Shown here piece by piece: positions 27,354-28,537 of a stretch of DNA of 37,878 nt. The position numbers and the translations under genes are program-made. Position 1 is the first letter of the stretch. The number at the start of each line of letters is the position of its first letter. The DNA lies in contig JACROR010000016.1 of the NCBI GenBank assembly GCA_016214345.1, positions 1 through 37,878 of the forward strand. Reading direction: 5' to 3'. This DNA is from Candidatus Niyogiibacteriota bacterium (lineage in GTDB: Bacteria > Patescibacteriota > Minisyncoccia > JACROR01). Below the pieces are notes generated by a model. It was not told where the DNA came from. It searched no databases and saw only the letters and a list, made by a program, of their open reading frames with translations.

Positions 27354-27371
27354 AGGCCGTATTTATGGCCT
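27354..27371 (-). terminator. Intrinsic terminator downstream of the tRNA-Trp transcription unit
   Basis: AGGCC-gtatttat-GGCCT followed on minus by GTTTTTTTTT. Confidence 0.75.
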
Positions 27372-27568
27372 ATTTTATGGGCAAATTCCGCGGAGTGTCC
27401 CCGGCGTACCACAAGAGTACTTCCATTTTCATAGTCGCCTTGCGGCTCTTTGAAAATTAGGTCGCTCGTTCGATTCCTACTGCCATTTCAAATTGTTGAA
27501 ACTCATCTATGTTCTTGCAAGCCTTAACTAAACAAATCCCGCTTTCGCTCGCATTCTTGCGGGCTGTG

Positions 27569-27991: not shown

Positions 27992-28036
27992 ATATTATTT
28001 TATGAATCGCAAACCCGACTTTCTCGTTCCGTAATA

Positions 28037-28075
28037 TGCGCAGGGAGGCCTGCCTGCCGGCAGGCAGGGATTCAA
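28037..28075 (-). pseudogene. tRNA-Tyr 3'-end fragment with family A palindrome inserted in the T-arm
   Basis: tgcgcagggagg | CCTGCCTGCCGGCAGGCAGG | gattcaa versus intact tgcgcagggagggattcgaa. Confidence 0.85.
28049..28068. repeat. Palindrome family A, copy 2
   Basis: Identical to 2527-2546. Confidence 0.92.
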
Positions 28076-28096
28076 TTTCCTCCTAGGGAAATTCCG

Positions 28097-28117
28097 CGGA
28101 GTGCCCCCGGCACTCCG
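28097..28117. repeat. Palindrome family C
   Basis: CGGAGTGCC-CCC-GGCACTCCG; related sequence AAATTCCGCGGAGTGtCCCCGGC at 27383-27405. Confidence 0.75.
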
Positions 28118-28188
28118 TTCGAATCCCTTCTATATATTACAAAGTCCGTGCAAAATCAATGCGCATGCGCCATTCTCGTTCCGCAATA

Positions 28189-28229
28189 TGCGCAGGGAGG
28201 TATTCGAACCCCCGTAGGCCGTAAGGCCG
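28189..28229 (-). pseudogene. tRNA-Tyr 3'-end fragment, second copy
   Basis: tgcgcagggaggtattcgaacccccgtaggccgtaaggccg, 40/41 identical to the intact tRNA-Tyr. Confidence 0.92.
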
Positions 28230-28285
28230 TCCCTCACCTTTCACAGATAAATTGCGTAGGAAAGCGAAGTAAACTTTCCTTCAAA

Positions 28286-28370
28286 TGCGCAGGGAGGGAT
28301 TCGAACCCCCGTAGGCCGTAAGGCCGCTTGGTTTACAGCCAAGTGCGATTGACCGCTCTGCCACCTGCGC
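28286..28370 (-). tRNA. tRNA-Tyr (anticodon GTA) with long variable arm
   Basis: Acceptor GCGCAGG/CCTGCGC; anticodon stem-loop CTTGG-CTGTAAA-CCAAG; T-loop TTCGAAT. Confidence 0.95.
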
Positions 28371-28427
28371 ATTTGAAGAAATCTTTCCACTAATCATTTT
28401 GATTTTCAATATATAAAGATGAGGGAT

Positions 28428-28473
28428 GCGATTGACCACCCCGCCCAAGGCGGGCAGGTCTGCCACCTACGCA
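28428..28473 (-). pseudogene. tRNA-Tyr 5' fragment interrupted by a GC palindrome
   Basis: gcgattgacc | accCCGCCCAAGGCGGGcagg | tctgccacctacgca versus intact gcgattgaccgctctgccacctgcgca. Confidence 0.85.
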
Positions 28474-28537
28474 TTCTACGACTGTGGTTAACTTAATATT
28501 TCTAAATCATATTATAAAATCACGGCTCTTGCAATCC

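Follow-up and report, generated by a model that had tools for sequence, protein, structure and literature searches.

The partial tRNA copies around the intact tRNA-Tyr gene of the window (the whole 37,878-nt stretch analysed here, contig C10 of G000, a 691-kb genome assembly in 32 contigs) are a real feature and one instance of a broad, largely undescribed class. With a probability of about 0.6, we read the locus as the outcome of small, folded, non-autonomous elements having inserted repeatedly into the tRNA gene. The evidence consists of a recurrent anatomy, a junction rule, arms specific to each tRNA, the dispersal of near-identical cores and an empty site.

The tRNA-Tyr locus and its nested copies

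Two anatomies coexist at the window tRNA-Tyr, a T-loop module and nested copies, and all of their parts lie on the reverse strand. The intact tRNA-Tyr(GUA) gene (28285-28371; ARAGORN and Rfam) is the inner copy. An outer tRNA-Tyr is split around it into a 5′ part at 28427-28474, which holds tRNA positions 1-28 and is interrupted by a palindrome at 28440-28459, and a 3′ part at 28189-28229 comprising the variable arm, the T-arm and the acceptor 3′ strand. Further downstream, a third fragment (28037-28073) repeats the tRNA from position 57 to its end (17/17); it reads GAATC plus CCTCCCTGCGCA and is interrupted by the 20-nt palindrome CCTGCCTGCCGGCAGGCAGG at 28049-28068.

The first-pass annotation had placed three partial copies around the intact gene, and sequence inspection, ARAGORN, Rfam and self-matching confirm them. 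The near-identity to the tRNA 3′ end that it gave for the fragment at 28189-28229 is borne out (97.6% over tRNA positions 46-87), and the unit it saw in both 3′ fragments is a 28-nt direct repeat (28021-28048 and 28173-28200, 27/28 identical) that includes the trailer following the outer 3′ part (28173-28188, recurring at 28021-28036). Palindromes do interrupt two of the three fragments, and the same palindrome recurs elsewhere in the genome: CCTGCCTGCCGGCAGGCAGG is dispersed in G000, at 28049-28068 and 2527-2549 of the window and on contigs C5, C7, C17, C18 and C23, frequently inside tRNA copies.

Two further features were absent from that annotation. One, at 28074-28129, is a three-way-junction core together with an inverted T-arm, made up of the P1′ strand AAGGGATTCGAA (28118-28129, an exact inverted match), the P2 hairpin (28097-28117), a CGG junction (28094-28096) and the P3 hairpin (28074-28093); the fold has z = −4.6. 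This core is of type F4 and not F1. It falls outside covariance model R1, with which the Asp module of the same genome, also F4, scores only 16 bits. The other is a pair of complementary linkers that join the split ends of the outer gene. The outer tRNA-Tyr lacks an anticodon arm and has in its place TCCCTCATCTTT (28415-28426) and AAAGGTGAGGGA (28230-28241), complementary at 11 of 12 positions and enclosing the intact tRNA. The linker duplex reaches −30.8 against −15.1 ± 3.2 for shuffled sequences, none of 500 being as stable.

This nested anatomy, in which a second copy is split at its anticodon arm and encloses an intact tRNA with complementary flanks, is not confined to tRNA-Tyr. Paired-linker nesting is significant at Leu(CAG), Gln(UUG) and Arg(UCU) of G000 and at two Thr loci (L062, L065), and is not significant in the shuffle test at Val(UAC) or at the L067 tRNA-Tyr. 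The outer copy at Gln(UUG) has its own compensated acceptor stem (TTCCAGG/CCTGGAA). Archaeal-type introns were considered and provisionally rejected, their bulge-helix-bulge motif being missing by eye from the nested copies. As to the order of events in the window, the outer tRNA-Tyr would have gained the F4-type module, after which the intact tRNA-Tyr would have come to sit in the outer anticodon arm; the 16-nt trailer common to the outer 3′ part and the distal copy is expected if the module entered the outer gene first. Insertion into the T-loop leaves the nested form itself unexplained.

The source genome is in 32 contigs, which could raise the suspicion of an assembly artefact, but the chance of this is close to nil because like anatomy is found in the single-contig genome G422 and in complete E. 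coli K-12, as well as in the three-contig G040.

T-loop modules, their junction and their distribution

On the tRNA strand, a module begins after the tRNA with a spacer or trailer hairpin; the inverted T-arm (P1′) and the core (P2, P3 and junction) follow, and a direct repeat of the tRNA from 57 to the 3′ terminus closes it. Of 326 scanned tRNAs, 62 have a further exact copy of a 13-mer from the 57-to-end block downstream, starting exactly at 57 in 51 of the 62 and at 58 in nine, counts that take in loci fetched for having modules; the unbiased share of tRNAs with a repeat is 3-24% per genome. Most repeats end at the tRNA 3′ terminus or a few nt off, and they measure 20 nt where CCA is encoded and 17-18 nt where it is not. 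Single module examples fold with z-scores of −4.4 to −8.9 relative to shuffles. Units have a period of about 65-300 nt, hold no cargo and can form tandem arrays; trailers and even terminators are duplicated at some loci (Asp, 41 nt; L194; L054). Arrays of several units were seen at a tRNA-Tyr of G048 (L059) and at an Arg locus (L346), their period being about 118-144 nt. Another core family, F7, is longer; its direct copy starts at 58, and it lies behind Ala, Cys, Glu, Ile and Ser tRNAs of G422 (L219-L248).

Modules were rejected as degenerate second tRNAs, since P1′ has the reverse-complement sequence of the tRNA's 3′ side and not that of its own 5′ strand (at Tyr of G001, GAGGG and not GGGGG). 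A hammerhead-type ribozyme was dismissed by eye on account of a junction mismatch, and Rfam returned no known RNA family other than tRNAs and the RtT RNA of E. coli.

The F1 core family was followed through its 17-mer GCGAGGCGGGGTCGCGA, which is present in 13 of 285 genomes of the class, the reversed control giving none. Sixteen of its 17 copies directly follow a tRNA encoded on the same strand, and P1′ and the direct copy mostly match that tRNA. When 18 F1 copies are aligned, they fold as a three-way junction whose junction bases are invariant and whose P1 and P3 pairs covary. With covariance model R1, F1 was recovered in 53 of 379 Patescibacteria genomes, the highest count in one genome being at least 10 copies. 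Thirty R1 loci were fetched; 23 have an upstream tRNA or tmRNA, and most of the rest are next to a tRNA remnant or the end of a contig. A match to their own tRNA was found for the direct arms of 20/23 loci and the inverted arms of 15/23, versus 8.7% and 9.7%, respectively, for other tRNAs. Across GTDB species, a full core could be recognised at 54 exact 17-mers, of which 43 lie ≤300 nt downstream of a tRNA or tmRNA, and the matches include Saccharibacteria, Berkelbacteria, Falkowbacteria and several Elusimicrobia; as a control, none of about 40 17-mer matches in Streptomyces, Myxococcota and other phyla is near a tRNA. An Rfam search of the F1 loci returned no entry for F1. At four loci (L201, L215, L253, L309) F1 lies directly 3′ of a tmRNA gene, and the T-arm and 3′ end copied are those of the tmRNA.

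These arms bear on a suggestion of the first-pass annotation, namely that repeats are generated by a tRNA-templated process. It is partly right, in that the arms of each unit are complementary and identical to their own tRNA. The upstream 5′ copy is of a different kind, a nested copy split at the anticodon arm.

Self copies are enriched genome-wide. Each tRNA was matched to the ±400-500 nt around itself and, for comparison, to the DNA flanking other tRNAs, and self matches of at least 26 bits were found in 15 of 46 tRNAs in G000 (0.8 expected), 12 of 40 in G001 of the same family (1.0 expected), 6 of 39 in G040 (0.36 expected) and 2 of 37 (5%) in G029 (0.6 expected). A chance origin of the copies is excluded. 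Upstream of the tRNAs, self copies are 5′ parts that stop within the D-loop or at position 35/36 of the anticodon. Downstream, direct copies are 3′ parts whose first base is in the anticodon loop or at T-loop position 57, and inverted T-arms are found 20-130 nt away. G000 and G001 do not have the same tRNAs affected, and the pattern is therefore dynamic. Many tRNA-Tyr loci of relatives have such copies, with up to 100% match to their own tRNA; since the array varies among them, the invariance that the first-pass annotation named as grounds for refutation is not seen.

In the window, three of four tRNAs (Tyr, Trp and Lys) have self copies or modules. Upstream of the intact tRNA-Lys(UUU) gene (2403-2476) there is a copy of its 5′ part at 2509-2558, on the reverse strand, with a 20-nt palindrome in the D-arm. 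A decayed T-loop module lies 3′ of tRNA-Trp (27360-27490, reverse strand), with an inverted T-arm at 27468-27484 and an F4-like core remnant at 27380-27405; it contains the repeat CACAAGAGTACTTCC...AGGTCGC, also found beside tRNA-Arg(UCG) (L028).

Dispersal, proposed insertion and rival explanations

Near-identical cores sit behind different tRNAs of one genome. In G001 this applies to tRNA-Tyr and tRNA-Leu(GAG), with arms that differ and fit the respective tRNA, and in G430 the Arg, Gly and tmRNA cores are 97% identical. Since the same core is found on many tRNAs, the 3′ end that is restored would come from the target and not from the element, which would favour target duplication over integrase-borne attachment sites.

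One clear filled/empty pair is provided by tRNA-Leu(GAG), which has F1 in G430 and no module in G422, a genome of the same genus. Flank homology between the two resumes only past the displaced 3′ end; the element therefore separates position 56 of the ancestral gene from position 57, and it provides the working tRNA with its 3′ end. At tRNA-Ala(GGC), the G422 core is unlike that of G430 and G370 at the same site, the downstream terminator being common to them, and Gly(CCC) has two tandem units in G430, one in G590 and a truncated one in G422. Within the one genus tested, cores behind the same tRNA in different genomes are on average 0.91 similar (n = 6) versus 0.79 for different tRNAs of one genome (n = 40). 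Same-tRNA cores are thus as similar or more so across genomes, and vertical inheritance accounts for much of the pattern; in the same genus P1′ is imperfect. Two observations make the case for mobility, a single clear pair of filled and empty sites and the dispersal of cores, and gene conversion could produce the second of these too. We conclude that the elements are likely mobile or dispersed, possibly with a role as RNA, and that mobile DNA with target-site duplication likely accounts for them.

In the mechanism proposed here, an element composed of a spacer or hairpin, a P1′ strand complementary to the T-arm of the target tRNA and a P2 + P3 core would enter the T-loop at the 56|57 boundary or, in some types, at 57|58. 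Its entry would duplicate the 17-20 nt that run from 57 to the 3′ end, sometimes together with the trailer. The copy beside positions 1-56 would restore the tRNA and the native 3′ end would be displaced downstream, where P1′ would pair with it and close the three-way junction. As for a mobilising enzyme, mobilisation of the IS200/IS605 or RAYT type would call for a Y1/HUH transposase. Y1 transposases (PF01797) are present in G000 (six Y1_Tnp-like matches) and some other genomes, and none was found in the F1-bearing G422, G430, G001, G023 and G537. No reverse transcriptase (PF00078) was found in eight of ten F1-bearing genomes, including the near-complete G422, and G430 also has none. We speculate, tentatively, that these are a new kind of insertion element with flanking arms copied from the target, one that enters the T-loop of tRNA and tmRNA genes, duplicates the block from 57 to the 3′ end and gains its tRNA-complementary strand in a guide-like or Cas1-like manner, without a known transposase, reverse transcriptase or island integrase.

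The first-pass annotation had proposed scars of serial integration and excision at an attachment site. Serial insertion at the tRNA 3′ end is supported by the starts at 57 or 58, the usual end at the tRNA 3′ terminus, the tandem units and the empty site; the copies are not scars of excised islands or phages, as the units are small, folded and still present, with cores common to many different tRNAs. Islands or phages that integrated at tRNA 3′ ends and were later lost would account for the block from T-loop to 3′ end, which is what tRNA-specific integrases leave behind, and partial tRNAs left by such integrases are described (PMC9897764). Tyrosine recombinases would be in keeping with this origin, but they are uninformative because they are present in all 15 genomes tested. 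Moreover, 3′ ends borne by integrase elements would mismatch each new tRNA, and the F1 17-mer occurs in only three viral contigs. No phage match was found for the window tRNA-Tyr locus, and a phage origin was rejected for it. We regard attachment-site scars as very improbable.

Local tandem duplication combined with replication template switching at quasi-palindromic tRNA genes could act with no mobile element at all. It would generate perfect inverted arms, the duplicated trailers and terminators mentioned above agree with it, and nested copies with complementary linkers suit hairpin-driven events. Alone, however, it leaves unexplained a conserved core found at many tRNAs and genomes with a fixed start at 57, and it seems to us a highly improbable account of the locus as compared with the insertion of elements.

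Comparison with RtT and other known systems

In E. coli K-12, RtT units (RF00391) lie downstream of tyrT/tyrV, with four Rfam matches. The unit comprises a tRNA-complementary strand GGGGAAGGAT, a folded core and a direct copy from 58 to CCA, and the annotated RttR ends at the CCA of this copy. The lys and arg operons (lysV, L272; lysT-lysQ, L275; argQ-argV, L273) also contain modules; these have a related core (CGTTGC...GCAACGGCCCGAAGGGCGAG) and copy the 3′ ends of the respective tRNAs, and even the terminator is duplicated at lysV and lysQ. Generally, the repeat is seen in 3 of 26 distinct E. coli tRNAs sampled. Patescibacteria modules resemble RtT in their tandem units and in the succession of tRNA-complementary strand, folded core and direct copy of the adjacent tRNA's 3′ end. 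Unlike RtT, they occur at many tRNAs and at tmRNA, in several core families and with insertion polymorphism, and their core sequence is another one, Rfam holding RtT and no F1. The RtT covariance model gives four matches in E. coli and none in the window, the F1 loci, L048, L059, L002 or L077. What the E. coli and Patescibacteria modules have in common is the anatomy alone, and homology of their cores is not claimed.

The annotated status of rttR raises the question of function. The conserved junction and the tRNA-identical 3′ end suggest, from sequence, that the RNA itself may act, and modules might be kept for a predicted rtT-like small RNA with a tRNA-like 3′ end or for a switch in which P1′ would pair either with the T-arm of the tRNA itself or with the displaced copy. 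The invariant junction with its compensatory pairs in F1, the constant strand and distance relative to the tRNA, and the E. coli equivalent, an annotated ncRNA with its 3′ end at the CCA of the direct copy, would all agree with a functional RNA. Its patchy presence speaks against it, with different tRNAs affected in G000 and G001 and only 5% of tRNAs in G029, as does the position of some copies past the tRNA's own terminator (tRNA-Pro at L194; E. coli lysV/lysQ). We hold this explanation to be unlikely, though well within consideration; function and mobility are compatible readings.

Insertion of small elements, the reading we prefer, also invites comparison with other systems. Like the attL/attR sites of ICEs and P4-like islands, modules have a block of identity that runs from a loop of the tRNA to its 3′ end, and duplication of this block restores the tRNA. 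Unlike ICEs and P4-like islands, their units (period mostly about 65-215 nt) hold no cargo and no integrase of their own specific for one tRNA, and one core serves many tRNAs. REP/REPIN sequences and Rickettsia palindromic elements are short, structured, non-autonomous and dispersed, as tRNA modules are; they differ from modules, whose arms are identical or complementary to the target tRNA and which have one defined insertion position. Casposon and CRISPR Cas1 insertion duplicates a whole target block beside a fixed leader, as module insertion would, and casposons are known at tRNA 3′ ends; the tRNA modules, unlike casposons, lack any gene.

No paper on such elements in CPR bacteria or on rtT, and no description of the class, was found in the literature searched, a body that lies mostly outside subscription journals and older E. 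coli tRNA papers. Our results suggest that the tyrT/rtT repeats, an old curiosity of E. coli, belong to a broad class of tRNA-gene elements that is frequent in Patescibacteria, is also found in Elusimicrobia and obeys a simple, testable junction rule. If mobile, these elements would insert, without lethal effect, into genes that are among the most essential in streamlined genomes, reusing one core at many targets, and we know of no described element that does so. The similar anatomy of the lys, arg and tyr operons makes function and movement testable in E. coli K-12. In genome annotations, modules yield false tRNA calls and spurious ORFs.
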